Shown piece by piece: positions 25,638 through 49,267 of a DNA stretch of 64,000 bases. The position numbers were made by a program, and so were the translations under genes. The notes under the pieces are model-generated. The model had not been told where the DNA came from. It worked only from the letters and a program-made list of their open reading frames with translations, and searched no databases. Every line of letters starts with the position of its first letter. The stretch's first letter is position 1. The DNA comes from Nocardia asteroides (lineage in GTDB: Bacteria; Actinomycetota; Actinomycetes; Mycobacteriales; Mycobacteriaceae). The stretch spans positions 4,712,001 through 4,776,000 of the forward strand of contig CP082844.1 in assembly GCA_019930625.1 (NCBI GenBank), given 5' to 3'.

Positions 25638-26810
25638 GTGCGCCGTTTCAGTCTGTGGCTCAGAGGCAAGCCCATCGTCGCCGATTCGGTGCTGGCGGCG
25701 GTTCTCCTGCTGCTCGAGATCGTCGGGGTGGGAAACGCGCACAACAAACTCGCCTACCTGGCGATCGGGGTGCTGCTTCCGCTGCCGGTCACCCTGCGGC
25801 GGGTGTATCCCCGGGCCATGGCGGCGGTCACGTTGGCCCTGTCGCTGACGACGTCGCTGGTGGGGTTCCTGACCGAAGACGACGCCGAGCACATAGCGCT
25901 GCTGTCCCACGGCATCATGCTCTACACGCTGGTCGCCTACGTCGGCAGGCGGGAGGGACTCTGGTACGGGGCCGGCCTGGCGGCGGATCTGGCGCTCGCG
26001 ATCGTGGCGATCGGGAAACCCTCCGGGCCCGACATCGTCTTCACCGCCATGTTCTACGCGCTGTCCTGGACGCTCGCGGAATTCATCGGCGCGCGGCACG
26101 CCTACGACGCCGAGGTGGCGGCGCGGCTCGCGGTCGCCGACTACGACAAGGAGCGGCGCGCGCACGACGCCGTCGCGGCCGAACGCACCCGCATCGCGCG
26201 CGAACTGCACGATGTGGTGGCCCACGCGGTGAGCGTCATCATCGTGCAGGCCGACGGCGCGAAGTACGCGCTGCGCCGCGACCCCGACGCGGCCGAACAG
26301 GCGCTCGCCACCATCGCGAGCACCGGCCGCGAAGCGCTGCGCGAGCTGCGCAGAACCGTCGCCCTGCTGCGCACCGAGCACGCCCCCGACCAGCTGCCCC
26401 AGCACGGCACCGCGGGCATCGCCAAGGTCGTGGAGATGATGCGCGGCACCGGCTTGGCCGTGGAACTCGAGCTGACCGGCGAACTCGACGACATCGCGCC
26501 CGAGGTCAGCCTCGGCGTGCATCGCATCGTGCAGGAATCGCTGACCAACACCCTGCGGCATGCCGGTCCGCACCCCAAGGCGTGGGTGCGGGTGCGTCGC
26601 ACGGAGGCCGACGTGCTGATCGATGTCACGGATACCGGCGGTGTGCCGCTGCACGATTCGGGCACGCGCATCGAGGGCAGCGGCCTCGGCTTGGTCGGGA
26701 TGCGCGAACGGGTCGCCGTGCTGGGCGGCAGCCTCGACGCAGGCCGCGACGCCGACGGGACCTGGCGGGTGCGCGCCAGCATCCCCTTGCGGCCCGGTCC
26801 GCCGGAGTGA
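25638..26810 (+). CDS. Two-component sensor histidine kinase (HisKA_3 type)
   Basis: The 390-residue kinase has four to five N-terminal membrane helices (about residues 12-130). The dimerisation/phospho-acceptor region is ERTRIARELHDVVAHAVSVI with His191. A HATPase_c domain has an N-box (HRIVQESLTNTLRHAG) and a G-box (GSGLGLVGMRERV). It starts with GTG at 25638. The response regulator follows after 143 bases. The short N-terminal sensor has no periplasmic domain, so it may sense membrane-state or antibiotic signals, as is common in this NarL/LiaS-like class. Confidence 0.93.
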   Translation: MRRFSLWLRGKPIVADSVLAAVLLLLEIVGVGNAHNKLAYLAIGVLLPLPVTLRRVYPRAMAAVTLALSLTTSLVGFLTEDDAEHIALLSHGIMLYTLVAYVGRREGLWYGAGLAADLALAIVAIGKPSGPDIVFTAMFYALSWTLAEFIGARHAYDAEVAARLAVADYDKERRAHDAVAAERTRIARELHDVVAHAVSVIIVQADGAKYALRRDPDAAEQALATIASTGREALRELRRTVALLRTEHAPDQLPQHGTAGIAKVVEMMRGTGLAVELELTGELDDIAPEVSLGVHRIVQESLTNTLRHAGPHPKAWVRVRRTEADVLIDVTDTGGVPLHDSGTRIEGSGLGLVGMRERVAVLGGSLDAGRDADGTWRVRASIPLRPGPPE

Positions 26811-26953
26811 GCCGGGCCCTGCTCGTACGCGAGGGTGTAGAACGCTGCGCCACAGTCGGATTCGCTCGGCCCCGCGATTCGGGCGTCACCCGGACGAAAC
26901 CTGTCGCGCCCAGCTCGACCGGTGCGCGGAAGCGGCCACGTTACATTGGGGAC

Positions 26954-27613
26954 GTGCCGATCACCGTTCTCGTCGTCGATGACCAGGAACTCATGCGAAT
27001 GGGATTGAAGATGGTGCTCGGCGCACACCCTGACATCGAGGTGGTCGGTGAGGCCGCCAACGGCGCCGCCGCGGTCGCCAGAGCGGCGGAACTGCGACCC
27101 GACGTCGTGCTGATGGACGTGCGGATGCCCGTGGTGGACGGGGTCGTCGCCACCACCCGCATCGTGGAGGCCGGACACGGCAGCAGAGTGCTCGTCATGA
27201 CGACCTTCGACCTGGACGAGCACGCACTGGGCGCGCTGCGCGCGGGAGCGAGCGGGTTCCTGCTGAAGGACACCCCGCCGGAGGACCTCGTTTCGGCCAT
27301 CCGCAGCGTCGCCGCCGGTGACGCCGTGGTCTCGCCGAAGGTCACCAAACGCCTGCTGGACCGGCTCATCGCGGAGAATCCGGCGCGTACCCGCGACCCC
27401 GGGGTGCTCGACGTGCTCACCGCCCGCGAGCGCGAAGTGCTCGAGCAGATCGCGGCCGGACGCTCCAACGCCGAGATCGCCGAGCAGTTGTACCTGTCGG
27501 AGGCAACGGTCAAGACGCATGTGGGGCGGGTGCTCACGAAACTCGGCCTGCGGGACCGGGTTCAGGCGGTCGTGCTGGCTTATGAGACCGGGTTGGTGCG
27601 GCCCGGCGGCTGA
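26954..27613 (+). CDS. NarL/LuxR-family response regulator
   Basis: The 219-residue protein has a receiver domain (residues 1-120) with acidic D9/D10, phospho-acceptor Asp55 in VVLMDVRMP and a conserved Lys in FLLKDT. A C-terminal LuxR helix-turn-helix follows (LTAREREVLEQIAAGRSNAE, then LYLSEATVKTHVGRVLTKLG). It pairs with the upstream kinase. The GTG at 26954 sits 7 bases after a TTACAT -10-like box, so a leaderless transcript of its own is possible. Confidence 0.93.
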   Translation: MPITVLVVDDQELMRMGLKMVLGAHPDIEVVGEAANGAAAVARAAELRPDVVLMDVRMPVVDGVVATTRIVEAGHGSRVLVMTTFDLDEHALGALRAGASGFLLKDTPPEDLVSAIRSVAAGDAVVSPKVTKRLLDRLIAENPARTRDPGVLDVLTAREREVLEQIAAGRSNAEIAEQLYLSEATVKTHVGRVLTKLGLRDRVQAVVLAYETGLVRPGG

Positions 27614-31276: not shown

Positions 31277-32959
31277 ATGGTGCGAGAGCGAGTGCTCGGA
31301 GCGATGCGACCGGCCTGGGCGGCGGTATCCCGGCATCCGGTGGCGGCGCGCTCGGCGGCGGCGATCTTCGCCGGGCTGCTGTTGTTCGGCAGCTTCCCGC
31401 CCCGGCCGTGGTGGTTTCTCGCACCGCTGGGCATCGCGGTGCTCACCCTCACCGTACGCGGCGACGGACGTCTGCGGGCGGGCTTCGGGTACGGATTCCT
31501 GGGCGGTCTGGCGTTTTTCGTCCCGCTGCTGCCGTGGACCGGTATCTACGTCGGGCCGTTGCCGTGGCTGGCGCTGTCCACCGTGTGCGCGCTGTACGTG
31601 GGCGTGTTCGGCCTGCTCGCCCGGTTGATCGGCGCGCTGCCCGGCTGGCCGCTGTGGGTGGCGCTGGCCTGGACCACCGCCGAGTGGGGTAGATCCAGCT
31701 TCCCGTTCGGCGGATTCCCCTGGGGCCGTTTGGCCTTCGGCCAAGCCGAAGGCTGGTTCCTGTCGCTGGCAGCGGTCGGCGGCGCCCCGCTGGTCGGATT
31801 CGCGGTGGCGCTCACCGGAACCGGTACGGCGGCGCTGGTCTCGCTGCTGTGGCGAAATACCGCCGGTAAGGGGAGCGGATCCGCCGGAGACGGGATCGAG
31901 CGGCCCGGGCGGCACACTCCGAGTGGACCTGCCCCGGCGACTCGACTCGGGTACGCCGCTGCGGCTTTCACCCTGCTCGTCATGCCGCTCACCGGTCTCC
32001 TGCTCACCTCTGCCCTGCCCGATCCGGACGAGGGCGATCGAACGGTCACGGTCGCGGCGATCCAGGGCAGCGTGCCGCGGCTCGGACTGGACTTCAACGA
32101 GCAACGGCGGGCTGTGCTGGACAACCATGTACGGCGCACCGAAGAACTGGCCGCCGAGGTAGCGGCGGGCCGCTCCCCTCGGCCCGATGTGGTGATCTGG
32201 CCGGAGAACTCCTCGGATATCGACCCGTTGCGCAACGCCGACGCCGCCGCCCTGATCACCGCGGCCTCCGAGCGGATCGGCGCGCCCATCCTGGTCGGTG
32301 CCGTGCTGATCAACCCGGATCGGACGACGACCAACTCGGTGATGGTGTGGAACGGCGCGGGGGGGCCGGGCGAACGGCACGACAAAAAGATCATCCAGCC
32401 CTTCGGCGAGTACCTGCCGATGCGCGGATTTTTCCGGCTTTTCTCCGAATACGCCGATCGGGCGGGATATTTCGTGCCGGGAAATGGTGACGGAGTTGTG
32501 CACGCGGCAGGTATCGACATAGGCGTCGCAACGTGCTATGAAGTGGCCTTCGACCGGTCGTTCGAAGACGCGATGCGCGCGGGCGCGCAGCTGCTCACCG
32601 TGCCAACGAACAACGCCACCTTCGGCGACAGCGAGATGACCTATCAGCAGCTGGCCATGTCCCGCATCCGTGCCGTAGAGCACGGTCGAGCGCTGGTCGT
32701 CGCCGCCACGTCGGGTGTCAGCGCCATTATCGCCGCCGATGGCGCTGTGCGGCAGGAAACCGCGTTGTTCGTGCCCGCAGCCCTGGTCGCCGAGCTTCCG
32801 TTGCGCGATGGCACCACTATCGCAACGCGAATAGGACCTGCGCCGGAGCGGTTGTTCGTTATCCTGACGGCTGTTGCCGTACCGGCCGCCGTTATTCGGC
32901 GGCGATCATCCGCGCGGGAGGGCGCCCGGACCGGCGGTCGAGCCGTCGCCGGCCGATAG
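31277..32959 (+). CDS. lnt: Apolipoprotein N-acyltransferase homologue
   Basis: Lnt adds the third acyl chain to the N-terminal cysteine of lipoproteins at the membrane. The 560-residue protein has about seven N-terminal membrane helices (including LLLFGSFPPRPWWFLAPLG). A C-terminal nitrilase domain holds the catalytic triad Glu310 (IWPENSSD), Lys370 (HDKKIIQPFGEY) and Cys420 (VATCYEVAF). One more helix closes the protein. There is no fused or adjacent Ppm1 glycosyltransferase, which is the usual partner in mycobacteria. The gene lies directly upstream of the NRPS on the same strand, 381 bases away. The ATG start at 31277 is the best of several. Confidence 0.93.
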   Translation: MVRERVLGAMRPAWAAVSRHPVAARSAAAIFAGLLLFGSFPPRPWWFLAPLGIAVLTLTVRGDGRLRAGFGYGFLGGLAFFVPLLPWTGIYVGPLPWLALSTVCALYVGVFGLLARLIGALPGWPLWVALAWTTAEWGRSSFPFGGFPWGRLAFGQAEGWFLSLAAVGGAPLVGFAVALTGTGTAALVSLLWRNTAGKGSGSAGDGIERPGRHTPSGPAPATRLGYAAAAFTLLVMPLTGLLLTSALPDPDEGDRTVTVAAIQGSVPRLGLDFNEQRRAVLDNHVRRTEELAAEVAAGRSPRPDVVIWPENSSDIDPLRNADAAALITAASERIGAPILVGAVLINPDRTTTNSVMVWNGAGGPGERHDKKIIQPFGEYLPMRGFFRLFSEYADRAGYFVPGNGDGVVHAAGIDIGVATCYEVAFDRSFEDAMRAGAQLLTVPTNNATFGDSEMTYQQLAMSRIRAVEHGRALVVAATSGVSAIIAADGAVRQETALFVPAALVAELPLRDGTTIATRIGPAPERLFVILTAVAVPAAVIRRRSSAREGARTGGRAVAGR

Positions 32960-33340
32960 CGGGTTCCCTGCCGAGCCAGCGTTAACCGAACTTTCGGTAT
33001 GTTCTTTCCTCCACCGCCCCGAAAGTAAAGGTGCGGAATTAAGTTGCGCAACGTTCGCCTGACAAGCGGGACGCCTGGCGAAGTACCATCGAACAGTCTG
33101 GTCAGAGCCCGTTTTGCTTCGGTTCGACCTAGTTGAGTCACAATGTTTGCGGAAATGTAACCAACCAAAGTGGCCTTCTGCCAAGGACGTTGGATGTGAA
33201 ACAAATCCAAAACGTCGGCAATCCGGCTTAGGCGATGCTCCGAATCATAGGGCGTGGATCACGTCCTACGGCAGGCGCGCGTGCGTTTGCTGTAGTGGTG
33301 CTCGGGGAGTTGCGTCAACAGCGGCAGAACGGAGTGATTG
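32960..33340 (+). promoter_or_regulatory. 381-base leader and promoter region of the NRPS gene
   Basis: This is an AT-richer stretch than its surroundings. It opens with a small palindrome, ACCGAA-CT-TTCGGT (32985-32998), followed by a T-rich run that could end the lnt transcript. TTGAGT near 33132 is a possible -35, but no good -10 follows. No IdeR-like iron box is visible, so iron control of the NRPS has no support here. Confidence 0.45.
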
Positions 33341-36300
33341 ATGAGTTCATTGGCCACGGATCGCGTCGACCAATGTTCATCCGGCGAATTTTCGGCACAA
33401 CCGTTTGCACTGTCACCCGCACAGACGGCTCTCTGGTACGCGCAGCGCATCCGGCCCGACGTACCGTTGACGATCTCCCAGTACGTCGAGATACACGGCG
33501 ACCTGGACGAGGGACGGCTGCTGTACGCGATCGAGCGTTTCGGCGCCGAGACCCAGGTGGGTCAGCTGCGCTTGGTGGAGATCGATGGCACTCCGTATCA
33601 GATCGTGGATCCGGTGCACCGGCCGGGCTGGGTCCGTATCGACCTGCGTGGTGAAGCCGATCCGTACGCCGCGGCGCTGCGCTGGATGCACGAGCACACG
33701 AGTTCGCCGATCGATCTGGAACGCGACCCACTGACCTCCAACGCGGTCCTGCGGATCGGGGAGACCGACTACATCTGGTATTCGTTCGCCCACCACATCG
33801 TCATCGATGGTTACGGCGCGATGAACGCACTGACCCGTACCGCGGAGATCTACACCGCACTGGAGAACCGAACCGAGCCGGTCGCCTCGCGGGCGACTCC
33901 GCTGGCCGAGATCTACGCCGACGAGGCGCGCTACCACGACTCCAGCCGCTTCCAGAGCGATCGCGAGTACTGGGCAGGGCAGCTGTCGGGGGTGGGCGAG
34001 CCGGTGAGCCTGGGCGGGACCAGGCTCGGCGCCGCCACGCACGACGCCGGACGCAGGCTGGCCGCCGCCGTGCTGACCGACGAACACCATGCCGCGATCG
34101 AGGCGGCGACCAGCGCCTGGAACACGACCGATTCGGCGGTGTTCGTCGCGGCGCTGGCCGTCTACGTGCGGTCGGTGACGGGAAACCCGGACGTGGTCTT
34201 GAGCCTGCCGGTCTCGGCGCGCACCACGGTGTCGCTGCGCCGCTCGGCGGGCGTGGTGTCCAACGTCGTGCCGATCCGGCTGCGGTTCGACGAGTCCACC
34301 ACGATCGGCGACCTGGTGAAAGTCGTCGAGCTGCAGATCACCGGCGCCCTGCGTCATCAGCGCTACCGGCACGACGACATCCGGCGCGACAGCGGTTACT
34401 CCCGCGACGCCCGCGGGTTCTTCGGTCCGATGGTCAACCTGATGCTGTTCCACGAGGAGCTGCGTTTCGGCAGCCTGGTCGGCTCCATGCACGTGCTGGC
34501 CACCGGCCCGGTGGAAGACCTCTCGGTCAACGTCTACAACGGCGCGGGCGGGCGCTTGCACGTCGACTTCGAAGCCAACCCCCGCCTCTACGGCGAGGCC
34601 GAGGTGAACGTGCATCACGCACGCTATCTGGACTTCCTCGGCCGGTTCCTGGCAGCTGAAGCGACGCAGCCCACCGAGTCGCTCGGCGCGATCACCCTGG
34701 CCGAGCGGGAACAGGTCCTGCACGGCTGGAACGCCACCGAGGCGACCCGGCAAGAAGGCACACTGGCGAGCCTCTTCGCCGAGCGCGTCGCGACCGACCC
34801 GGAGGCGATCGCGCTCGAATTCGGCGACGAGGCGCTGACCAACGCCGAACTCGACGCCCGCGCCAACCGCCTGGCTCGGCTGCTCATCGCGCGGGGCGCC
34901 GGACCCGACACGACGGTCGGTCTGTGCCTACGCCGCAGCCTCGACCTGGTGGTCGGCATGTACGCGATCATCAAGTCCGGGGCGGCGTACCTACCGCTGG
35001 ACACCGAGCATCCGGCCGAGCGGATCGGGCAGATCGTCCGTCAGGCCGAGCCGCTGTGTGTGCTCACGGTGGCCCGCGACGAGATCGAACTGCCCGCGAT
35101 CGCCACCCGGCTGGACATCGACTCCGCGCAGGCGTCCGCCTTCGACGACGCGCCGATCACCGACGCCGATCGCAGAGGCGAGTTACGCCCCGGCCACCTG
35201 GCCTACGTGATCTTCACCTCCGGATCGACCGGAAAACCCAAGGGCGTCGGTGTGACTCATGCCGCCATCGTCAACCGCCTGCGCTGGATGCAGCACGAGT
35301 ATCCGCTCAGCCGCGCCGACGCGGTGCTGCAGAAGACCCCGGCGACCTTCGACGTCTCGGTCTGGGAGTTCTTCTGGCCCTTACAGATCGGCGCACGGCT
35401 GGTCGTCGCCGCGCCGGACGGGCACCGCGACCCGGAGTACCTCGCGCGGATCATCGCCCGCAAGCGCGTCACCACAGCGCATTTCGTGCCGTCCATGCTG
35501 TCGGTCTTCGTTACGGAGGCCGATCTGCGCGGTTGCACCAGTCTGCACCGGGTGTTCTGCAGTGGCGAGGCGCTGCCCGCCGCCACGGTGCGCGAGTTCT
35601 ACGCGGCGTTACCCGCGTCCGAACTGCACAACCTGTACGGCCCCACCGAGGCCGCCGTGGACGTCACCTATTGGCCGTGCCCGCCCGACGCGAGCGCCGT
35701 GCCGATCGGTTCGCCGGTGTGGAACACCCAGACGTATGTGCTGGACGACCGGCTGCGGCCCGTTCCGCCCGGCGTGGTCGGCGAACTGTATCTCGCCGGG
35801 ATCCAACTGGCTCGCGGCTACCTCGGACAGCCGCGGCTCACCGCCGACCGGTTCGTGGCCAACCCCTTCACCCCGGGCGCGCGGATGTACCGCACCGGCG
35901 ACCTGGCCCGCTGGCAGATCGGCCGCTCCGGCGCGGAGCCGGGTGTGCTGGAATATCTGGGCCGCAGCGATTTCCAAGTCAAGATCCGCGGCCTGCGCAT
36001 CGAACTCGGTGAGATCGAGGCCGCCCTGCTCGAAGACCCGAAGGTCGCTCGCGCGGTGTGCGTGGCGCACACCGGACGCGCCGGTGACGAGCTGGTCGCC
36101 TACGTCGTCGCCAGGCAGGAGCACGACGACGCCCGGCTGGACACCTCAGCGCTGCTCACCACCCTGCGCCATACGCTGCCCGGGTACATGGTGCCCTCCG
36201 CGCTGATGGAACTCGACGAGCTACCGTTGAGCGCCAACGGCAAGATCGATCGCAAAGCGCTGCCCGCTCCCGTGTTCGGGCCGCGTTCGATCCGGCCGAT

Positions 36301-36520
36301 CGCCGAACCGCGCACCGAGGTCGAGCGAGTGCTCGCGGGCATCTTCGCCGAGGTCCTCGACACCGAGATCGGCATCCAGGACAACTTCTTCGATATGGGC
36401 GGCAACTCGCTCATCGCCGCTCGGGCGGTGGCCAGGATCAACGCCGCGCTCGGCACCGCGCTGAGCATCCGGGATCTGTTCGAGGCCGCCACGATCGACG
36501 CGCTCACCGAGCGGTTCGCC
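33341..36520 (+). other. NRPS module 1: EntF-like C domain, serine A domain, carrier
   Basis: C1 (residues ~20-440) resembles the first domain of EntF, including [20 protein letters not shown] and [13 protein letters not shown], so it likely N-acylates the seryl carrier with an acyl or aryl group supplied in trans. A1 (about 470-985) has FDVSVW (671-675), His714, Phe739, Ser741, Leu765, Val773 and Asp774. This is the serine code. The carrier serine is 1023. Confidence 0.85.
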
Positions 36521-39500
36521 ATGCAGACCACCGACGCGTCCTCACCGCGGCTGGCGCCGGCCGAGCGGCCGGAGCGGATTCCGCTGTCGCAGGCGCAGCA
36601 GCGGCTGTGGATCCTGAACCGGTTCTCCGAGCATGCCGCCGCGTACAACATGCCGCTGGCCGTCGCGGTGGAGGGACCCCTTGACGTGGCCGCGCTGCGG
36701 GCGGGTCTGGTCGATGTGATCGAGCGGCACGAGAGCCTGCGCACCACCTTCCCCGAATCGCCGGACGGGCCCTACCAGCTGATCCACCCGGCAGACGCGA
36801 TCCCGCTGACGCTCGACCCGATCGATGTCACCGACGACGACGTGGCCGGGCTGGCGACCGAGTACGCCGGCTACGGCTTCGATCTACGCGCCCAGGCCCC
36901 GATCCGGGTTGCCCTCTACCGCACCGGAGCGCAGCGGCACGTCTTCCTCATCGTCCTGCATCACATCTGCGGTGACGGCTGGTCCATCGCGCCGCTGGCC
37001 AAGGATTTGATGACCGCGGTGGCGGCGCGTGCGAACGGTGTCGCGCCGCAGTGGACGCAGTTGCCGGTGCAGTATGCCGACTTCGCGCTGTGGCAGCGCG
37101 AATTGCTCGGCGAGGAATCCGATCCGGCCAGTGCGCTCAGCCGCCAGCTGACGCACTGGCGTTCGGCGCTGGCCGGGCTCCCCGAGCAACTCGACCTCCC
37201 CCTGGACCGCCCGCGTCCACTGCGCCGATCGACCGTCGGCGGCCGCGTCGAGTTCACCATTCCGGCGGAGATCCGCCGCGGCGCGATCGAGCTCGCGGCC
37301 AGCCGGGGCGTGAGCATGTTCATGGTGCTGCACGCGGCGCTGGCGACGCTGCTGTCGCGGTTGTGCGCGAGCGATGACATCGCCATCGGCACCCCGATCG
37401 CGGGCCGTTCCGATCCGGCGCTCGACGACTTGGTCGGCATGTTCGTCAACACGCTGGTTCTGCGCACCGCGGTCGACCAGGGATCCGGGTTCGACCGGAT
37501 GCTCGACGTGGTGCGCGAGACCGACCTCAACGCCTTCGCCAACGCCGACGTGCCGTTCGAGCGGCTGGTCGAGGTGGCCAACCCGGAGCGTTCCCCCTCG
37601 CGCCACCCGCTGTTCCAGGTGATGCTGTCCTACGACCACGCGCCGGACCTGCGGATCGATCTGCCCGGTGTGCGTGCCGAAGTGCTGCCGATCGCCTCCG
37701 ACGTCGCCAAGTTCGACCTGCAGCTGGTCGTGCACGACGACTCCGGCGACGGACCGCTGTCGGCCGAATTCGGCTATACGACCGATGTTTTCGACCGTTC
37801 CACGGTGCAGTCGTTCGCCCGCCGTTTCATCGCGGTGCTCGCCGGCGGCGTGGCCGCCCCCGAACTGCCGGTGGGCGACCTGCCGATCCTGGACCGCAGG
37901 GAAACCGAGAACCTGGTGCCCATCGGGGGCGCACCCGCCGAGCCGCCGATCACCCTGGCCACGTTGCTGACCGACACCGCACGCCGCGTGCCGGGCGCGG
38001 TGGCGGTGCGTTACCTCGGCGCCGACACCACCTACCGCCAACTCGACGAGCGCTCGAACACGCTGGCGCGCGCCCTCATCGACCACGGCGCCGGTCCAGA
38101 GACGGTCGTCGCGATCGCGCTGCCGCGCGGTCTCGACGCGATCACCGCAGTGTGGGCGGTCGCCAAAACCGGTGCGGCGTATGTGCCGATCGATCCGAAC
38201 TACCCGGGCGAGCGAATCGCGCACATGATCGGTGACTCGGGCGCGATGGTGGGCCTGACCGATCCCGAATGCCTCGCGGCCATGCCCGCTTGGCCCACGG
38301 CGCGGGGCAAGCACCGCAAGGCCTACGTCGACTGGCTGGTTCTCGGCTCCGCGGAACTGACGGCAGAACTCCGAGGTCACTCGGCGGATCCGATCACCGA
38401 CGAGGAACGGCACCATCCGCTGCGGGTGAGCCACCCGGCCTATCTCATCTACACCTCCGGCTCCACCGGCACGCCGAAAGCGGTGGTCGTCACCCACGCG
38501 GGCATCGCCTCCCTCGCCGGTGAGCAGAACCACCTGTTCGGCATCACGGACGCGGCGCGCACGCTGCACTTCTCCTCGCCCAGCTTCGACGCGTCGGTGC
38601 TGGAGATGCTGCTCGGTTTCGCCGCGGGCGCGACGATGGTGATCGCCCCCTCGGGCATGTACGGCGGCGCCGAGCTGGCCACACTGTTGCGCGAGGAGCG
38701 GGTCACCCACGCCTTCGTCACACCCGCCGCGCTGGCCACCGTGCCGAACGAGGGGCTCGACGAGCTGGCGACGGTCATCGTCGGCGGCGACGCCTGCTCG
38801 GAGGAACTCGTCGAGACCTGGACCGCCGGACATCGCATGCACAACATGTACGGTCCCTCGGAGGCCACCGTCGCGGCGACCGCGAGCGGGCCGATGGAGC
38901 CGGGCCGTCCGGTGCCGCTGGGGACGCCCGTGCGCGGCATGCGACTGTTCGTGCTGGACAACCGGTTGCACCCGGTCCCGCCCGGCACGCCGGGCGAGCT
39001 GTACGTGTCGGGTCCCGGTGTCGCGCGCGGCTACCACGGGCGTTGCGGCCTGACCGCGCAACGGTTCGTGGCCAACCCGCACGGCAGGCGCGGGGAGCGG
39101 ATGTATCGCACCGGCGACCTGGTCGTCATGGAGCGGTCGGGGCAGCTGCGGTTCCTCGGACGCGCGGACGACCAGATCAAGATCCGCGGTTTCCGCATCG
39201 AACTGCGCGAGATCGACAACGTGCTGCGCCTGCATCCCGGTGTCCGGTTCGCGCTCACCGTGGTGCACACCGACGAGCACGGCCAGGTGCGGCTCGCGTC
39301 GTATGTCACGGCCGACCGTCCGGTGGAGGCGCGGGCGGTGCTGGAAACCGCGCGCAGGCGGCTGCCAGGCTACATGGTCCCGGCCTCGGTGGCCGTACTC
39401 GACGAGATCCCGGTCACTCCCGCGGGCAAGCTGGACCGAAAGGCGTTGCCGGAACCGGTGTTCGCGGCCGCCGGGACGTCTCGCGCGCCGAGCACGGCAC

Positions 39501-42500
39501 TGGAGCTGGCCGTGGCAGGCGTGTTCGGCGGGGTGCTCGGGCGCCCGGTCACCGGAGCCGAGGACAGTTTCTTCGACCTCGGCGGCAACTCGCTACTGGC
39601 TACCCGGCTCGCCGCCGCGCTACACGCGGAGTTCGGTGTGGAGCTGCCGGTACGGTCGATCTTCGAGGCGCCCACGGTCGCCGGGATCGCCGCGCATGTG
39701 GACCGAGCGCCCCGGACGCGGCGGCCGGCGCTGGCGGTGCGGACGCCGCGTCCGGGACGTATCCCATTGTCGCTGCCGCAGCAGCGTCTGTGGTTCCTCA
39801 ACCGCTTCGCGCCCGAATCGAGTGCCTACAACATCGCTTTCGTGATCCGCGTCGCCGGAGATCTGGACGTGCCCGCGCTGCGGGAGGCGCTCACCGACGT
39901 GCTGCGACGACACGAGGTGCTGCGCACCGTCTTCCCGGAGGACGCCGAGGGCGCACAGCAGGTCGTGCTTCCGGTCGAGCGGGCCGTGCCGGATCTGACG
40001 GTCACCGACATCGACGACTCCGGCGCGAAGGACGCGCTGGAGTCGTTGGCGCACAACGGATTCGATCTCACCAAGCAGACGCCCGTGCGTCTGGCGCTGC
40101 TGCGCACCGCGCCCGAGCGTTACCTGCTCGGCGTGGTGGTGCACCACATCGCCGCCGACGGCTGGTCGCTCGGTCCGCTGACCAGGGACCTCGCTGTCGC
40201 GTACGCGGCGCGGCACGAGGGAGATGCCCCGTCGTGGACGCCGCTGCCGGTGCAGTACGCCGACTTCGGGCTCTGGCAGCGTGCCTGCCTGGGCTCCGAA
40301 GACGACCCCGGCAGTGTCGCGGCGACCCAGCTGGAGTACTGGCGTACCGCGCTGGCCGGCATCCCCCACCAGCTGCCGCTGCCCTATGACCGGCCGCGTC
40401 CCTCGGAGCCGACGCAGCAGGCCGGGACGGTGCGCTTCGCGGTGCCGGAGCAGCTGCGGCGCGGGCTCGCCGCGCTGGCAGGCGAACAGGGCGTCAGCAC
40501 GTTCATGGTGCTGCGTTCGGCGTTCGCGGTGCTGCTGCGCTGCGTCACCGGCGGTCGCGACATCGTGATCGGCACACCGGTGGCGGGCCGTACCGACACC
40601 AAGCTCGACGACCTGGTGGGCATGTTCGTGAACACGCTGGTGCTGCGTTCGGACGTGGACCCGGACCGCAGCTTCGCCGATCTGCTGCGCGCCGACCGGG
40701 ACACCGAGCTGGCCGCGATGGCGCACGCCGACATTCCGTTCGAGCGCATCGTGGAGGAACTCGGCGCGGAGGCCCGCTCCTCGGGTCGTCACCCGCTGTT
40801 CCAGGTGGCGCTGAGCGTGCAGGACGGCCCGGTGCCGGCACTGCAACTGCCCGGCCTCGCGCTGCGCGCGGAGCCGTTGGACATCGCGCTGGCGAAATTC
40901 GACTTGGAGCTGCGCGTCTCCAACGACGCGGGTGGCCCGGGATCCGTCTCGGGCGATCCGGAGAGCGTTTTCGAATTCGTCTACGCCACCGAGCTTTTCG
41001 ACGCGATGACGATCGAGACGCTGGCGGACCGGTTCTTACGCGTGCTCACGGCCGTCACCGGTGACCCGCGCGTACTGGTCCGCGACGTCGACGCGCGCAC
41101 CGACCACGAGCACCGCACCCTCGCCCCGGCGCGGGGCGGGCAGGCGGCACCGCCGTGCACGCTGGCCGCGTACTTCACGGCTACCGCGCAGCGGTATCCG
41201 CACAACACGGCGCTGCGCGCCGGCACGGCATCGCTCACCTACTCCGAGCTCGACCGGCGCTCGAACCGCCTGGCGCGTGCGCTGATCGCGCGCGGACTCG
41301 GCCCCGGGACGCGTGTCGCGCTGGGGCTCGTCCGCTCGATCGACTCGGTGGTGACGATGCTGGCGGCGGCGAAGTCCGGCGCGGCGTTCGTCCCGGTCGA
41401 CCCGAAGTACCCACCCGACCGGATCCAGCACATGCTCACCGACTCCGGCTGCGCGATCGGCGTCACGGTAGCGGCGCATGTGGAGCAGCTGCGCGCGGGC
41501 GCCCCCGCTGGAGGACACACCGAGTGGCTGCTGCTGGACCGTCCCGAGTTCGCCGCCGAACTCGACGGCCACGACGACGCGCCGATTCACGATAGCGAAC
41601 GCTCGCGCACCATCCAGGTCGCCGATCTGGCCTACCTGATCTACACCTCGGGATCCACCGGAAAGCCCAAGGGCGTCGCGGTGACCCACAGCGGCCTGTC
41701 CAACCTGGCCGACGAGATCCGCGACCGCATCGGCGTCGACGAGTATTCCCGCACATTGCACTTCGCCTCGCCGAGTTTCGACGCGGCGATCCTGGATCTG
41801 CTGATCGCGTTGGGCGCGGGCGCGGCGATGGTGATCTGCCCGACCGACATCTACGGCGGCGACGAACTGGCCGCGCTGATGGACCGCGAGCAGGTCTCCC
41901 ACGGCTTCATGACGCCGGCCGCGCTGGCCACCATCGATCGCGAACAGTGGCCGCTGCCGCACATGCGTGCGCTCCTGGTCGGCGGTGAGGCGGTGGCGCC
42001 GGACCTGGTGGCGCGCTGGGCGCCGGGCCGCGTGATGTGCGATGTGTACGGACCCACCGAGACCACGGTCGTCATCACCATGTCCGGTCCCCTGCGGGTC
42101 GGCGAACCGATCAGCATCGGCAGCCTGGTGCGTGGCGCTCGAGGATTGGTGCTCGACGAGCGGCTGCGCCCGGTGCCGGTCGGCGTTCCCGGCGAGTTGT
42201 ACCTCGCGGGGCACGGTGTCGCGCGCGGTTACTTCGACCGGTTCGGTCTCACCGCCGCACGTTTCGTGGCCGATCCGTACGGCCCGGCGGGAGCCAGGAT
42301 GTACCGGACCGGGGACGTGGTGCGCTGGAGTGCTTCCGGCGAGCTGGCCTACCTCGGCCGCAGCGACCACCAAGTGAAACTGCGCGGTTTCCGCGTCGAA
42401 CTCGGCGAGGTCACCGCCGTGCTCGGCGAACACCCGTCCGTGCGGTTCGCGCACACCGAGGTGCGCCGCATCGCGGGCGCCGACCGGATCATCGCCTACG

Positions 42501-45500
42501 TCCAGCCGGCCGACCGCACGGCCGGGGTGGACCCCGAGGCGGTGCGCGCCTCCGTCGCGCGACGGCTGCCCGCGCACATGGTGCCCGCGGGCATCACCGT
42601 GCTGGACACGATCCCGCTGACGCCGGTCGGGAAGCTGGATGTCAGCGCATTGCCCGAGCCCCGATTCCTCGCGCACCCCACCGGTCGCGAGCCCCGGACC
42701 GAAACGGAGGGTTTGGTCGCCGCGGTGATGGGTGAGCTCGTCGGCGCCGCGGACGTGCGCGCCGACGACAGCTTCTTCGACATCGGCGGCAACTCGTTGC
42801 TGGCCACGCAGCTCGTCGCCCGGCTGGCCGCGGCGACGAACGTGCGACTGGCCGTGCGCACGGTGTTCGCCACGCCGACGGTCGCCGGGCTCGCCGAGTT
42901 GCTGGACGCGGGCGCCGAGTCCGACGCCGACCGCCCCGCGCTGGTGCGCAGGCAACGTCCGGAGCGCATCCCGCTGTCGGCCGCGCAACGGCGACTGTGG
43001 TTCCTCAACCGTTTCAACGCCGGTGGCGGCTCGGCCCCGGGACAGTCGGCCGGCGCCTACAACGTCCCGCTCGTGCTGCGCATGACCGGCAGCTTGAACG
43101 TAGACGCTCTCATTCGCGCACTGCACGCGGTGCAGGCCAGGCACGAGACCCTGCGCACGGTGTTCCCGGAGAGCGACGGCGCACCCGCCCAGGTCGTCCT
43201 CGATCCGGCCGAAGCGGCGATCTCGCTGTCGCGGGCGACGGTGCGGCCGGAGCAAGTGGAGGGCATCGTACGGCGTTTCGCCGCACCGGGGTTCGATCTG
43301 GCCGCGGCCGTTCCGATCCGGGCGGCACTGATCTCGGTGTCGACCGGCGGCGACGAGCCCGTGGAGCCCGCCGAGCATGTTCTGGTCGTGGTCGTGCACC
43401 ACATCGCGATGGATGGCTGGTCGCTCGAGCCGATGGCCGCCGATGTCGCCGTCGCTTACCGCGCGGCCTGCGGCGGTAACGCGCCGGACTGGGCGGAGCC
43501 GGAGGTCCAGTACGCCGATTACACGCTGTGGCAGCAGGACGTGCTCGGCAGCGAGGACGACCCGGACTCGGCGGTGAGCAAGCAGCTGGACTACTGGCGG
43601 CACACTCTCGACGGCATCCCCGAGTTGCTGACCGTACCGGCCGACCGGCCGCGTCCGCCTGCTCCGTCCTACCGGGGCGGCACGGTGGAGTGCGCGGTGG
43701 ACCCGGTCACCCACCGCGAATTGCAGGCGATCGCGGGCGGCAACAACGTCAGCTTGTTCATGGTCCTGCACGCCGCGCTCGCGGTGCTGCTGCACCGCAT
43801 GACGGCTACCGACGACATCATCGTCGGCACCCCGATCGCGGGCCGCGGTCACCCCGCCCTGGACCGGCTGGTCGGCATGTTCGTCAACACGCTGGTGCTG
43901 CGCACCCGCCTCGACCCCGGCGCACGGTTCACCGACCTGCTGCACGCGGTGCGCGAAACCGATCTGGACGCCTTCGCCCACGCGGACCTGCCGTTCGAGC
44001 GTCTCGTGGAGGTGCTCAACCCGGCCAGATCTCAGGCGCACCATCCGATGTTCCAGGTGATGCTGTCGGTGCGCAACGAGCCGGTCGGCGGGCTGGACCT
44101 GCCCGGACTGCGCATCGAGGCGGCTGACATCGACACGGGAGTCGCCAAGTTCGATCTCCAGTTCACGTTGACCGAAACGCAGACCGCGCAGCGCGATCCG
44201 GCCGGCATCACCGTGGCGGTGAACTATGCGAAGGATCTGTTCGACGAGTCGACCGCGCAGCGGCTCGGCAAGCGGCTGACCCGGTTGCTCGCCGCGATCG
44301 CCGCGAGCCCGACGACCGCGGTGGGCGATCTGGAACTGCTCGACCCCGCCGAGTGGTCGGGCCTGGCGCCGGTACGCGGTGGCAAACCGGACCGGCCGAT
44401 CACCTTCCCCGAGGTGTTCGAGCAGGCGGCGAGCGTCGACCGCGCCGCGGTCGCCCTGGTCTCCGACGGTACCGAGGTGACCTACGGCGCCCTGGATCGC
44501 TGGACGAACCGGCTGGCGCGGGTGCTCATCGCCCGTGGGGTCGGTCCGGAAACTCTGGTGGCGCTCGGCATCCCGCGATCGGTCGAGTCGGTGGCGACGG
44601 TGCTCGCTGTGGCCAAGGCCGGAGCGGCGTTCGTGCCGGTCGACCCGTTGTACCCGCAGCAGCGCATCGCGCACATGCTGTCGGATTCCGGTGCGGCGCT
44701 GGGCATCACGCTGTCGGGCTACCGCAACGAGCTGCCCGAGGGCACGGAGTGGATCGTGCTCGACGATCCGGACTTCCGCGGGCTGGTGCTGGACGCGCCG
44801 GACGAGCCGATCGCCGAGACCGAGCGCCTCGCCCCGCTGCGGATCGACAACCCGGCGTACGTGATCTACACCTCCGGCTCCACCGGCACGCCGAAGGGCG
44901 TGATGGTTACCCACGGCGGGTTGTCGAACTTCGCCGCCGAGACGGCGTCCCGGTTCGACGTCCAGCCGGGGTGCCGCGTACTGCACTTCGCCACGCCGAG
45001 CTTCGACGCCGCGATGCTCGATCTGCTGCTGTCCCTCGGCGGCGCTGCCACTCTGGTGATCACGCCCACCGGCGTGGTCGGCGGCGATGACCTGCGACGG
45101 GTCTTCGCCGAGGAGCGGATCACCCACGCGTTCATCACCACCTCCGCCCTCGGCACGGTCGACCCCACCGGACTCGACGAGTTGCAGCACGTGCTGGTCG
45201 GCGGTGAGGCGCTGCCGCCGGATCTGGTGACCAGGTGGGCGCCCGGCCGCAGCCTGTACAACGTCTACGGCCCCACCGAGACGACCATCGTCACGGTCAT
45301 CTCACAGCCGATGACGCCGGGTGGGCCGATCACCATCGGCGGCCCCATCCGTGGCGTCAACGCGGCGATCCTGGACGCGCGACTGCATCCGGCTCCGATC
45401 GGAGTGACCGGGGAGTTGCACCTGGCCGGTGACGCTCTCGCCCGTGGCTACCTGAATCGTCCTGGTCTGACCGCCCAGCGGTTCGTCGCCAACCCCTTCG

Positions 45501-46993
45501 GCAAGCCGGGGGAGCGGATGTACCGCACCGGCGATCTGGTGCGCTGGTGGGCAGGGACGCGCGAGAACGGGTCGGCGGACGCCGCGCACGAGATCGAGTA
45601 CGTCGGCCGCACCGACCATCAGGTCAAGATCCGCGGTTTCCGTATCGAACTCGGTGAGATCGACGCCGCGCTCGCCCGCCATGGCGCGGTGGCCTTCTCC
45701 ACCACCATCGGGCATGGCACCCCGGCGGGCGCGACGGCGCTGGTGTCGTACGTCAAGGCCCGCGACGGCGTGACACTCACCGCGGCCGAGTTGACCGGGC
45801 ACCTGGCCCGGCTGGTGCCGAACTACATGGTTCCGCAATCGATCATGCTGCTCGACGAGGTGCCGCTGAGCCCGGTGGGCAAACTGGACCGCGCCAAGCT
45901 GCCGGAACCGGTGTTCACCACGGGTGAGGGCTACCGCGCCCCGTCCACCCCGACGGAGCAGGCGCTGTGCGCGGCCTTCGCCGAGGTACTCGGTGTCGAG
46001 TCGGTGGGCGTGGACGACGGGTTCTTCGAACTCGGCGGCAACTCCCTGCTGGCCACGAAAGTGGTTGCGCACGTCCGGGAAACCGGCATCGACCTGCCGG
46101 TGCAGCTGATGTTCGGCGACGCGACGCCCGCGGCCATCGCGGCGCGGCTGGACGGTGAAGGCGCGACCTCGGGCGCCGCGGTGGCGGCGATGCTGGCGCC
46201 GGTGCTGCCGATCCGGCCGAGTACCGCGGCAAGCCCGGCGCCGCTGTTCTGCGTGCACCCGGCGATCGGATTGGCATGGTGCTATTCGGGGTTGCTCGCG
46301 CACCTGCCGTCGGACCGCCCGGTGTACGGCTTGCAGGCTCCGCATGTCGCGGGAGAGGCCGGGCACGAGTCGATCGCCGAGGCCGCGAGCCACTACGTGG
46401 CCCGGATCAAGGAAATCCAGCCGCAGGGGCCCTACCACTTGCTCGGCTGGTCACTCGGCGGACTGATCGCGCAGGAGATGGCGGTGCAGCTGCAGGAAGC
46501 CGGCGAGGAGGTCGCGCTGCTGTCGATGATGGACAGCTACCGGCTGTCGGACGCATTGCTCGAGGAGGCGACCCCGAGCGTGGCCGAGATCGTCGGGGAG
46601 TTCGGCAGCGACGAACTCGACGGGGAGATCGATCCGGGCATGAGCCTGCGCGACGCGGCCGAACTGCTGCGCGCGCGTTCCGGGCCGTTCGCGGCGCTGA
46701 CCGTCGAACATCTGGAGCGGCTCTACGCCGGCTACGAGAACGGCACCGTGCTCGCGCACAGCTTCCGGCCCCGTGCGTTCGACGGTGACCTGTTGTTCTT
46801 CACCGCGGGCGACGACCCGGTCAACCGGGCCGATCCGGATCGGCGCGCCGAGGCATGGCAGCCGTACATCACCGGCGCGGTCCATGACTACGAGCTGCGC
46901 TGCGGGCATTCCGCGATGACCACACCCGAGGCGCTGGCCGAGATCGGGCCGGTGCTGTCGAGGTGGCTGGAGACGAAGGAGACGCACCGGTGA
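33341..46993 (+). CDS. Four-module non-ribosomal peptide synthetase (C-A-T)x4-TE
   Basis: The 4,550-residue synthetase has domain order C1 A1 T1, C2 A2 T2, C3 A3 T3, C4 A4 T4, TE. All condensation motifs are intact (HHxxxDG at His151, His1207, His2268, His3353). All four carrier serines sit in GGNS (Ser1023, 2084, 3152, 4235). The thioesterase has Ser4371, Asp4398 and His4523. There are no epimerase, methylase, oxidase or reductase domains. Residues lining the A1 pocket give DVWHFSLVD, the code of EntF for L-serine. A2-A4 share DALF-type codes. The ATG at 33341 follows GGAG. The gene overlaps the exporter genes (GTGA), forming one operon. The product is not identified. Confidence 0.95.
36521..39700 (+). 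other. NRPS module 2: C-A-T, hydrophobic-type code
   Basis: C2 has HHICGDGWS (1207-1215), and no epimerase precedes it, so an L-donor type is expected. The A2 pocket reads D1750, A1751, L1754, F1792, I1813, G1815, M1836, V1844, A1845 (DALFIGMVA). This has no exact match among codes I know; it looks aliphatic. The carrier serine is 2084. Confidence 0.75.
39701..42910 (+). other. NRPS module 3: C-A-T, leucine/isoleucine-like code
   Basis: The C3 motif HHIAADGWS starts at 2268. The A3 pocket reads D2814, A2815, L2818, F2856, L2879, G2881, V2902, V2910, V2911 (DALFLGVVV). It shares most positions with the known leucine code DAWFLGNVV and the isoleucine code DGFFLGVVY. A branched aliphatic residue is the best guess. 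The carrier serine is 3152. Confidence 0.7.
42911..46150 (+). other. NRPS module 4: C-A-T, leucine/isoleucine-like code
   Basis: C4 (HHIAMDGWS at 3353) has a small Gly/Ser-rich insertion near its start ([13 protein letters not shown]). The A4 pocket reads D3889, A3890, L3893, F3931, L3952, G3954, V3975, I3983, V3984 (DALFLGVIV). It is one residue different from A3, so A3 and A4 probably activate the same or similar amino acids. The carrier serine is 4235. Confidence 0.7.
46151..46993 (+). other. NRPS thioesterase domain
   Basis: This is a type I thioesterase with [15 protein letters not shown] (Ser4371), Asp4398 in SMMDSYR and His4523 in [10 protein letters not shown]. It would release the tetrapeptide by hydrolysis or by cyclisation. 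Cyclisation on the first serine hydroxyl is chemically possible but unproven. Confidence 0.85.
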
Positions 46994-47982
46994 GTCTGGC
47001 GGTGGAGGTAACCGGCCTGGTGAAGAACTATGGCCGGGTCCGCGTGCTGGACGAGGTCGACCTACGTATTCCCACCGGCACCGTGATGGGCTTGCTCGGC
47101 CCGAACGGCGCGGGCAAGACGACGACCGTGCGGATCGTCACCACGCTGCTGAAGCCATCCGCCGGGTCGGTGCGGGTAGCGGGCATCGATGTGCTGCGTG
47201 ACCCGGCGGCGGCGCGCAAACGGATCGGGCTGTCCGGTCAGTACGCCGCCGTGGACACCAACCTGTCCGGCTACGAGAACCTGCGTATGGTGGCTCGCCT
47301 GTACGGGATGTCCCCGAAACAGGCGAGCGCCCGGGCCACCGAACTGCTCGATGCCCTCGGGCTGGACTATGCCGCGCACCGCAGGGCCGGAACCTACTCC
47401 GGCGGCATGGCCCGGCGGCTCGACCTCGCGGGTGCGCTGGTCGCCCGGCCGTCCGTGGTAGTACTGGACGAGCCGACCACCGGGTTGGACCCGCGCGGCA
47501 GGCTGGACATGTGGAAGGTGATCGGCGACCTCGTCGATGACGGCACCACGGTGCTGCTCACCACGCAGTATCTGGAAGAGGCGGACCTGCTGGCCGATCG
47601 GATCACCGTCATCGACCACGGGCGCGTGATCGCGCGCGGCTCGGCCGACGAGCTGAAGACCTCGATCGGTGGTGACCGGCTCACCGTCACCCTGGCCGCC
47701 GGGCAGGCCGCCGCGCCCGCGCTGGCGGTGTTGGCGCAGATCGGCGTCGGCGAGCCCGCGCACGAGGCAGGCACCGAGGAGGTGTCGGTGGTGGTCGGCG
47801 ACGGCTCGCGCACCATGGTGGAGGCGCTGCGCAGGCTGGACGACGCGGGCGTCTGCGTCGTCGACGCGAACGTGCACCGGCCCAGCCTCGACGACGTATT
47901 CCTTTCCCTCACCGGCAAGCCGGGCAGCGCGCCGGCCATGGCACCGGAAAACCACGACCTACCAGAGGAGATCATGTCGTGA
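46990..47982 (+). CDS. DrrA-type ABC exporter ATP-binding protein
   Basis: The 330-residue ATPase drives export by a DrrA/DrrB-type ABC-2 transporter. Walker A is [10 protein letters not shown], the signature is [16 protein letters not shown], and Walker B is [13 protein letters not shown]. The H-loop region reads [16 protein letters not shown], with glutamine before Y as in DrrA. The C-terminal DrrA-specific extension ends with [14 protein letters not shown]. The GTG start overlaps the NRPS stop by four bases, giving tight coupling. Export of the NRPS product is the natural inference. Confidence 0.95.
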
Positions 47983-48854
47983 GCACGGCAATGGTCGGGG
48001 AACAAGCCCCGACGGCGGAGCCGGAGCCGAGAAAAGACGCGGCGCAGCGGGATTCCGGCCCGCGGCTGCGGCTGTTCCGGGACAGCGCGATCGTCGCCCA
48101 CCGCAATCTGCTGACCATCCTGCGCGTGCCCACCCTGCTGGTGACGGCCACGATCCAGCCGTTGATGTTCGTGTTCCTGTTCGCCTATATCTTCGGCGCC
48201 TCGCTCGGCGGTGGGCAGTACCGGGAATTCCTGCTCGCGGGCATCTTCACCCAGACGGTCGCGTTCAACGCCGCGTTCACCACCGTCGGGCTCGCCGGCG
48301 ACCTGCAGAAGGGCATCATCGACCGGATGCGGGCGCTACCGATGTCGCGGTTGGCCGTGCTGATGGGCCGCACGCTGTCGGACCTGGTGGTCAACATTCT
48401 CAGCTTGGCCGTGATGGTCGGGTGCGGGTACGTCGTCGGCTGGCGCATCCACGGCAGCGTCACCGACGCGGTGCTGGCGTTCGCCGTGATCCTGCTCTTC
48501 GCGTTCGCGATGTCCTGGATCGGCGCGCTGACCGGCTTGCTGTCACCGACAGTGGAAGTGGCGCAGAGCGCGGGGCTGATCTGGCTGTTCCCGCTGACGT
48601 TCATCTCCTCGGCGTTCATCTCGGCCGAGACCCTGCCCGGGCCCCTGCGCACGATCGCCGAATGGAATCCGATCACCGCGGTGTCGGCGGCGGGACGCAA
48701 GCTGTTCGACAACGACTCGCCGCCCACTTTCGTCCCGCCCAGCGGCTGGGCCGCCGACCACTGTGTCGAATACGCGGTGGCCTGCTCGGTGGCGATCCTC
48801 GCGGTGGCCGTGCCGCTGGCGCTGCTGCGTTATCGCAAGGTGGCGAGCCACTGA
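47979..48854 (+). CDS. DrrB-type ABC-2 transporter permease
   Basis: The 291-residue membrane subunit has six hydrophobic helices. It carries the ABC-2 features PLMFVFLFAYIFGASLGGGQ and EFLLAGIFTQTVAFNAAFTT, and the late motif LTFISSAFISAETLPGPLRT followed by EWNPITAV. The GTG start overlaps the ATPase stop (GTGA). It is the last gene of the NRPS-exporter operon, followed by a strong hairpin at 48880-48914. Confidence 0.95.
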   Translation: MSTAMVGEQAPTAEPEPRKDAAQRDSGPRLRLFRDSAIVAHRNLLTILRVPTLLVTATIQPLMFVFLFAYIFGASLGGGQYREFLLAGIFTQTVAFNAAFTTVGLAGDLQKGIIDRMRALPMSRLAVLMGRTLSDLVVNILSLAVMVGCGYVVGWRIHGSVTDAVLAFAVILLFAFAMSWIGALTGLLSPTVEVAQSAGLIWLFPLTFISSAFISAETLPGPLRTIAEWNPITAVSAAGRKLFDNDSPPTFVPPSGWAADHCVEYAVACSVAILAVAVPLALLRYRKVASH

Positions 48855-48931: not shown

Positions 48932-49267
48932 TCAGGCGCGGCGGCGGGTCTTGAGCAGTTCGAGGCGCTCCTTGAGCAGCTCCTCGAGCTCCTCCTTGCT
49001 GCGGCGCTCCAGCAGCATGTCCCAGTGCGTGCGCGGCGGCTTGACCTTCTTGGCCTCCTGCGTGGTGCCCTCGATCAGCACGCCCTCCTGGCCGTTGCGG
49101 CACAGCCAGGTCGGCGGGATCTCGGCGTCGTCGGCGAAGGGGACGTCGAATTCCTCGCCGTTGTCGGTCCGGTACCGGGCGATCCGACGCGGAGCCAGGT
49201 CGTGGTCGCGATCGGTCTCGTAGCTCACCGCTCCGAGCCGACTGCCTCGGAGTACGCGATCTGCCAT
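48932..49267 (-). CDS. rbpA: RNA polymerase-binding protein RbpA
   Basis: RbpA is an actinobacterial transcription activator that binds the housekeeping sigma factor and stabilises the open complex. The 111-residue protein shows the family sequence MADRVLRGSRLGAVSYETDR, the beta-barrel core EEFDVPFADDAEIPPTWLCR, and the sigma-interaction helix HWDMLLERRSKEELEELLKE. It shares the upstream terminator with the NRPS operon. Confidence 0.97.
   Translation of the reverse strand: MADRVLRGSRLGAVSYETDRDHDLAPRRIARYRTDNGEEFDVPFADDAEIPPTWLCRNGQEGVLIEGTTQEAKKVKPPRTHWDMLLERRSKEELEELLKERLELLKTRRRA

Follow-up and report, generated by a model that had tools for sequence, protein, structure and literature searches.

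A four-module nonribosomal peptide synthetase pathway of the Nocardia core genome, probably for an acylated, serine-headed tetrapeptide

Introduction

The systems closest to the one treated here have been described in genome surveys of Nocardia and in work on the humimycins. GCF 4, described as 'found in all Nocardia species' (Maennle 2020, PMC7413640), carries a nonribosomal peptide synthetase (NRPS) of four modules for Ser and three further residues, together with an N-acyltransferase and two transporters, and further widespread Nocardia clusters are named in the same survey. Seven polyketide synthase or NRPS clusters common to seven strains were reported by Komaki 2014 (PMC4035055), and line #25 of that study is a four-module NRPS common to seven Nocardia strains, the product of which was not predictable; NRPS clusters are also described as universal in Nocardia in a 2025 mBio survey. 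Humimycin A, Tyr-Ser-dTyr-Phe-dThr-Val-Val (Table 1, PMC12024397), belongs to the NRPS IupU, which has a starter condensation domain and stands beside an amidohydrolase and an N-acyltransferase (PMC5550956). Here we analysed an NRPS locus of Nocardia asteroides (genome of 7.4 Mb, assembly GCA_019930625.1) within a window of 64,000 nucleotides (contig CP082844.1, positions 4,712,001 to 4,776,000), to which all positions below refer. The locus, with the NRPS gene at 33341..46993, is a genuine pathway of the genus core, probably for a lipopeptide; pathways of this kind are common, and this one has already been catalogued. On the basis of its sequence features, we consider it fairly probable that it represents the Nocardia core NRPS pathway GCF 4 and directs the synthesis and export of an acyl-Ser-X-X-X lipotetrapeptide.

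Results

The NRPS gene forms a single open reading frame (ORF) on the plus strand, as do the exporter genes and lnt described below, from the ATG at 33341 to the stop at 46993, and encodes a protein of 4550 amino acids (aa) with the domain order C-A-T-C-A-T-C-A-T-C-A-T-TE (C, condensation; A, adenylation; T, carrier; TE, thioesterase). By Pfam search, four Condensation, four AMP-binding (with four C-terminal parts), four PP-binding and one Thioesterase domains were detected on this ORF, and the four T domains were further identified by the active-site Ser. The first module is composed of C1 (33404..34714), A1 (34778..36265) with the serine code DVWHFSLVD, and T1 (36308..36526) with the motif GGNS. 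This is followed by the second module with C2 (36575..37918), A2 (37949..39460, code DALFIGMVA) and T2 (39503..39715), the third with C3 (39758..41122), A3 (41153..42655, code DALFLGVVV) and T3 (42698..42910), and the fourth with C4 (42965..44353), A4 (44408..45925, code DALFLGVIV) and T4 (45953..46165), up to the release domain TE (46238..46960, PF00975). For comparison, the window was aligned with 38 fetched loci from other Nocardia genomes (39 loci in all). Both His and the Asp of the HHxxxDG motif were intact in C1 to C4 of all 39 loci, with a single Gly-to-Ala replacement in C1 and another in C3, and the active-site Ser was intact in all four T domains of every locus; in TE, the Ser was found in 39 loci and the His in 38. 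The complete synthetase with C, T and TE motifs, the serine code of A1 and the DALF-type codes of A2 to A4, all proposed in the initial annotation, were thus confirmed. In one of the aligned loci (L069, genome G061), the NRPS frame stops early within TE and drrA begins 289 bp further, as after a frameshift or an assembly error; in another (L089, genome G021), an antisense ORF of 4529 aa exceeds the NRPS frame of 4527 aa and is taken for an artefact of high GC content.

Orthologues of C1 with 59-100% identity were found in 146 of the 148 Nocardia genomes sampled, while the next among the matches listed showed no more than 49%, and chance is therefore not an issue. The two exceptions are a contig that ends just past lnt, the gene 5' of the NRPS (G015), and an assembly of 1340 contigs without lnt as well (G054); neither assembly can tell whether the NRPS is present. 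A frame longer than 4,400 aa was observed in 131 of the 146 genomes, and 13 of the remaining 15 are assemblies with at least 100 contigs; a frame of 3861 aa stands on the one-contig assembly G071. Upon protein search with the NRPS N-terminus, every organism-named match among the best 120 of 733 was from Nocardia, and a scan of 397 genomes of the order (E up to 1e-110, at most four candidates scored per genome) gave no non-Nocardia match above 49% among those listed. A 54% match with a frame of 4497 aa was recorded in Antrihabitans cavernicola, frames of the same size as the Nocardia NRPS in two genomes of another genus (G212 and G472), and an NRPS beginning with Ser in G557. A search for conserved synteny had been recommended in the initial annotation, and the NRPS was accompanied by drrAB in all 38 fetched loci. 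The four-module NRPS is not strain-specific, but belongs to the core of the genus.

In the tree of C domains (59 of 70 matches; ten were not carried over and one was too short), C1 fell into one group (support 100/99) with the C domains at the N-termini of three further NRPSs encoded in the N. asteroides genome. Two NRPS genes of this genome (C1:993628-998199 and C1:5083297-5087880, where C1 denotes the contig) carry near-identical C domains with branch lengths of 0-0.005, indicating a recent duplication. Among proteins of known structure, the best matches of C1 by sequence were RzmA (216 bits) and CDA (189 bits), followed by ObiF1 (155 bits) and EntF (147 bits), whereas C2 matched RzmA and CDA weakly, at about 50 bits. 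Judged by sequence, C1 is a domain of the starter class, nearer to the lipo-initiating C domains of RzmA and CDA than to EntF, and the earlier description of C1 as 'EntF-like' is not supported. Residue 148 of RzmA sets the length of the acyl chain, with Arg for C2, Met in CDA for C6 and Ala in HolA for C8 (PMC7804268). The residue aligned with it is Ala in all 39 loci (Ala160 in the window); those aligned with Tyr138 and Gln136 are Ala, Gly, Val or Ser (39 loci) and a small residue (35 of 39), respectively. Because of the invariable Ala at the chain-length gate, the cap is likely to be an acyl chain of medium or greater length, with an estimated minimum of about C8.

Some observations do not favour this assignment. 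The Ala at the gate is also usual in the paralogous starter domains that were read, and the comparison of the gate does not extend to ObiF1 and EntF. ObiF1 accepts an aryl donor, and in the fold comparison of an AlphaFold model of C1 (pLDDT 86) ObiF1 (45.6) ties with RzmA (44.8), followed by CDA (43.7) and EntF (34.0), so that the fold does not separate an aryl from an acyl donor. An acyl cap is nevertheless favoured, since RzmA, CDA and ObiF1 all score higher than EntF in the sequence comparison. No carrier or ligase for an aryl donor was found among the neighbouring ORFs scanned, a search that did not include genes in trans. Of the acyl- or aryl-Ser-X-X-X scaffold first proposed, acyl-Ser-X-X-X is thus retained as the likeliest reading, while the aryl cap has become the less favoured part.

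The A-domain codes differ in their conservation within the genus. The A1 code is identical in all 39 loci, and those of A2 (five codes, with one varying position) and A4 (four codes) are nearly invariant, while 16 codes were read for A3. The mean pairwise identity, too, is lowest for A3, at 0.67 as compared with 0.74-0.77 for the other A domains. The products of different species should therefore share positions 1, 2 and 4 and differ at position 3. In the domain order of the Nocardia NRPS no epimerization (E) domain was found, and the residues are for this reason probably all L, with a dual C/E function as a possible alternative; by domain search and tree, and for C2 also by PDB comparison, C2 to C4 are internal condensation domains placed in the main internal clade apart from the C domains behind E domains (97/98), C2 thus being neither of the D-donor type nor an E domain. 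A literature search with the DALF code strings gave no matching title on such codes in actinobacteria. According to the accessible literature, the humimycins were synthesized on the basis of product predictions, so that the assignment of DALF codes to Tyr and Phe in humimycin A is a predicted one as well, and for this reason no residues are named here for the DALF codes. The best PDB matches of TE were 7crn and 7dxo, followed by the TE of EntF.

The NRPS gene is followed by two exporter genes. The first (46990..47982) encodes a DrrA-type ABC ATPase (TIGR01188, 341.8 bits against a cut-off of 312.45) and overlaps the NRPS gene by 4 nt (46990/46993); the second (47979..48854) encodes an ABC-2 permease (PF01061, 101 bits) and overlaps the ATPase gene, also by 4 nt (47979/47982). 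The coupling of the NRPS to a DrrAB-type exporter, as proposed before, is borne out in the form of the NRPS/ATPase overlap, which among the 39 loci is kept in 25, replaced by a gap in 13 and not placeable in one. Genes for drrA and drrB stand behind the NRPS in all 38 fetched loci, and drrAB was found in Antrihabitans as well. The DrrB permease model gave only 63.1 bits for the window permease, below its cut-off of 223.05, while PF01061 was matched, and the pair is therefore classified as a Drr-type ABC-2 exporter in the wide sense alone.

Upstream of the NRPS start, the 39-locus alignment revealed a genus-conserved non-coding block (33238..33266), a candidate promoter/operator or leader, which has a single match in the genome when up to three mismatches are allowed. 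The surrounding segment 33220-33345 is strongly conserved in Nocardia. It contains GGGCGTGGATCACGTCC as an imperfect inverted repeat, as well as a CTCCG with which the Shine-Dalgarno sequence CGGAG could pair. By RNAalifold with 37 of 41 loci (L097, L098, L100 and L102 excluded), the 5' non-coding block gave -3.3, as compared with -0.28 +- 0.52 for 40 column shuffles, with hardly any covariation, and Rfam showed nothing at gathering level in 30000-51500; a structured RNA leader or riboswitch is thus not claimed. Further upstream, a two-component pair of a HisKA_3 kinase and a LuxR-type regulator (25638-27613) is located in front of the amidohydrolase gene.

The locus is flanked by two housekeeping genes, lnt for apolipoprotein N-acyltransferase (31277..32959; TIGR00546 equivalog, 281.1 bits against a cut-off of 132.9) and, on the minus strand, rbpA for RNA polymerase-binding protein (48932..49267; PF13397, 141.6 bits). 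In 37 of the 38 fetched loci lnt stands 0.2-1.1 kb upstream of the NRPS, and in the remaining one (G132) it is 13 kb away; rbpA stands behind drrB in 36 loci and was not reached within 20 kb in the other two. Genomes of the family that are at least 90% complete all carry lnt (81/81), and a single lnt match was found in the N. asteroides genome. The initial annotation had counted the Lnt homologue as part of the locus; because lnt is present in all 81 genomes, mostly without an NRPS, it is considered a neighbour and not a pathway member.

Among the 76 non-Nocardia genomes of the family, seven (G560, G567, G575, G585, G281, G453 and G583) were not fetched and one (G431) ends at a contig edge. 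Of 56 non-Nocardia loci read behind lnt, 43 showed rbpA without an NRPS within 6 kb, four an NRPS before rbpA, four an NRPS after rbpA, and five neither. Directly behind lnt, 47 of the 56 carry a homologue of the L301 family 2 glycosyltransferase, which is taken for ppm1; the usual arrangement of the family is then lnt-ppm1-rbpA without an NRPS. With nine further loci included, 13 of 69 non-Nocardia genomes examined have an NRPS either in the lnt-rbpA interval or immediately after lnt. The slot between lnt and rbpA is occupied by NRPSs again and again. No ppm1 was found within 20 kb in 40 loci (38 of Nocardia, L097 and L098), nor in four of the ten NRPS-bearing loci of other genera (Prescottella equi, IEGM 1409, G305 and G446), and its loss is therefore not peculiar to Nocardia; elsewhere in the N. 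asteroides genome, ppm1-like matches of 50% and 40% were detected.

One of these occupants is the gene behind lnt in Prescottella (Rhodococcus) equi DSM 20307, which encodes an NRPS of 8934 aa with the order Cst-C-A-T-C-A-T-C-A-T-E-C-A-T-C-A-T-E-C-A-T-C-A-T-TE (Cst, starter C) and the codes DALFVGAVV, DVWHFSLVD, DALFAGAVV, DALFMGGVM, DFWNVGMVH, DGFFAGAIM and DAFFAAGIQ. Order and codes agree with the peptide sequence of humimycin A. By architecture, codes and neighbours, though not by locus tag, this seven-module NRPS is identified as iupU. In a tree of starter domains (46 of 50 rows, four paralogue rows with in-frame stops being left out; L151 and L153 counted as slot-linked by rbpA alone), the C domains of the four-module NRPSs formed one group (82/89). 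Another group (100/100, 17 rows) held 12 of the 14 slot-linked long NRPSs and five unlinked rows, and the remaining two slot-linked long rows (R. opacus and G499) fell into a third; the tree does not settle the order of the groups. Four slot-linked NRPSs (L246, L250, L254 and L135) have a second condensation domain or a fragment of one between starter C and A1.

In a tree of 101 A domains from a chosen subset of sources, Nocardia and Antrihabitans were orthologous position by position (A1 97, A2 99, A3 90, A4 99), and their A domains did not pair with the humimycin modules. For L097, a four-module NRPS of another genus, A3 and A4 joined the Nocardia set, while A1 was placed among the Ser domains of the humimycin type (82) and A2 next to an IEGM 1409 module (89); a simple vertical history of L097 is disfavoured, because its A1 and A2 group outside the Nocardia set.

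Discussion

In the pathway proposed here, C1 would acylate the Ser loaded by A1-T1 with a fatty acyl group of medium or long chain supplied by acyl-CoA or a carrier, and C2 to C4 would add three hydrophobic residues, probably all L, with positions 2 and 4 fixed in the genus and position 3 varying between species. TE may then release the lipotetrapeptide either as the free acid or as a ring formed through the hydroxyl of Ser; its export to the envelope or the medium would fall to the DrrAB-type pair. The presence of the NRPS in essentially every species suggests that it serves Nocardia in a basic function and not as an occasional weapon; it shares this wide distribution with other clusters named in the surveys cited above. 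A concrete search for the product by mass spectrometry can be built on the gate residue, the constancy of positions 1, 2 and 4 and the variability of position 3.

Several other explanations were weighed against this pathway. An aryl-capped product of the EntF or ObiF kind, in which dihydroxybenzoyl or salicyl would be supplied from a carrier in trans to give a siderophore or siderophore-like compound, would agree with the Ser code of A1, as in EntF, with ObiF1 at the top of the fold list, tied with RzmA, and with ObiF1 and EntF as the matches that come after RzmA and CDA by sequence; it is regarded as unlikely. A smaller chance still is given to the Nocardia NRPS being a shortened orthologue of IupU that makes a humimycin-like inhibitor of MurJ, the lipid II flippase. 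The common slot behind amidohydrolase and lnt, the starter C, the Ser module followed by DALF modules, and the grouping of A1 of L097 with humimycin-type Ser domains (82) would all fit such descent, but the starter domains fall into separate groups (82/89 versus 100/100, in an order that the tree leaves undecided), no pairing with humimycin modules was seen for the A domains of Nocardia, and the humimycin type has a second C domain after the starter and two E domains; in addition, the humimycin scaffold offers little flexibility according to the accessible part of an analogue study. The shortened orthologue was rejected, the slot being the same but neither the starter C tree nor the A tree pairing Nocardia with the humimycin modules.

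The label 'putative N-acyltransferase' in the GCF 4 and humimycin clusters suggests a further explanation, that Lnt is a dedicated tailoring acyltransferase which N-acylates the peptide. Its position 0.2-1.1 kb 5' of the NRPS in 37 of 38 Nocardia loci would agree with such a role, but in 43 of 56 non-Nocardia lnt loci the following 6 kb contained rbpA without an NRPS, and the only lnt match in the N. asteroides genome scores above the Lnt equivalog cut-off. Given also the presence of lnt throughout the family and its separation from the NRPS by 13 kb in one Nocardia genome, a tailoring function is very improbable and was rejected. With the gene recognised as lnt, a misleading clue falls away for this cluster and, judging from the position, for those of the humimycins as well. 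Hardly any weight is given to the idea that many species carry the pathway in a silent or decayed state and retain it only through its linkage to essential genes. The early end of the L069 frame in TE and the 3861-aa frame of the one-contig assembly G071 could be taken as signs of decay, but 131 of 146 frames exceed 4,400 aa, 13 of the other 15 are in assemblies of at least 100 contigs, and the A1, A2 and A4 codes, the active-site Ser and the HHxxxD residues are nearly invariant. An intact core pathway for an acyl-Ser-X-X-X lipotetrapeptide remains the preferred reading.

A wider proposal may be added as a speculation with a rather low chance of being right. The lnt-rbpA interval of Nocardiaceae could be a standing site for envelope-directed lipopeptide synthetases, at which Nocardia would have fixed a four-module version with exporter and without the ppm1 that commonly stands there, for a core lipotetrapeptide of the envelope in which one residue is tunable by lineage, and humimycin-type synthetases would fill the site in Prescottella and some Rhodococcus; the product would then act on the envelope of the producer itself and not as an occasional antibiotic.

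With respect to the published record, the cluster is already catalogued as GCF 4, and in the literature searched, as far as accessible, its product is not assigned. The novelty suggested by the initial annotation does not stand, since cluster and prediction alike are already in print under the name GCF 4. Neither a product of the four-module NRPS nor a link to humimycin was found in the literature searched, which did not include most subscription papers, so that absence is not proven. Not met in the accessible parts of the papers were the recognition of lnt as a housekeeping gene, the class and gate residue of the starter domain C1, the variability of module 3 and the sharing of one slot with the humimycin synthetase.

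The locus agrees with GCF 4 in its single four-module NRPS, in the N-terminal Ser with three aliphatic or aromatic residues, in the neighbouring N-acyltransferase and the two transporter genes, both of which were found in the window, and in the occurrence in all Nocardia, as compared with 146 of 148 genomes here; nothing tested differs between the window locus and the accessible description of GCF 4. Line #25 of Komaki 2014 is likely to be the same NRPS. At the level of the starter domain, Nocardia C1 differs from RzmA-Cs and CdaPS1-C1 in having Ala at the gate in place of Arg (RzmA, C2) or Met (CDA, C6), while the likeness to EntF lies in the C-A(Ser)-T order of module 1 and the terminal TE. 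IupU of P. equi is similar to the Nocardia NRPS with respect to the location behind amidohydrolase-lnt, the starter C and the succession of a Ser module and modules with DALF codes, but is different in its seven modules, the tandem C at the start and the E domains in modules 3 and 5; its locus shows no drrAB match in the 38 kb read, and its starter C and A domains group apart from those of Nocardia. As far as the trees and domain orders indicate, the Nocardia NRPS and IupU are related kinds in one place, apparently of separate NRPS lineages.

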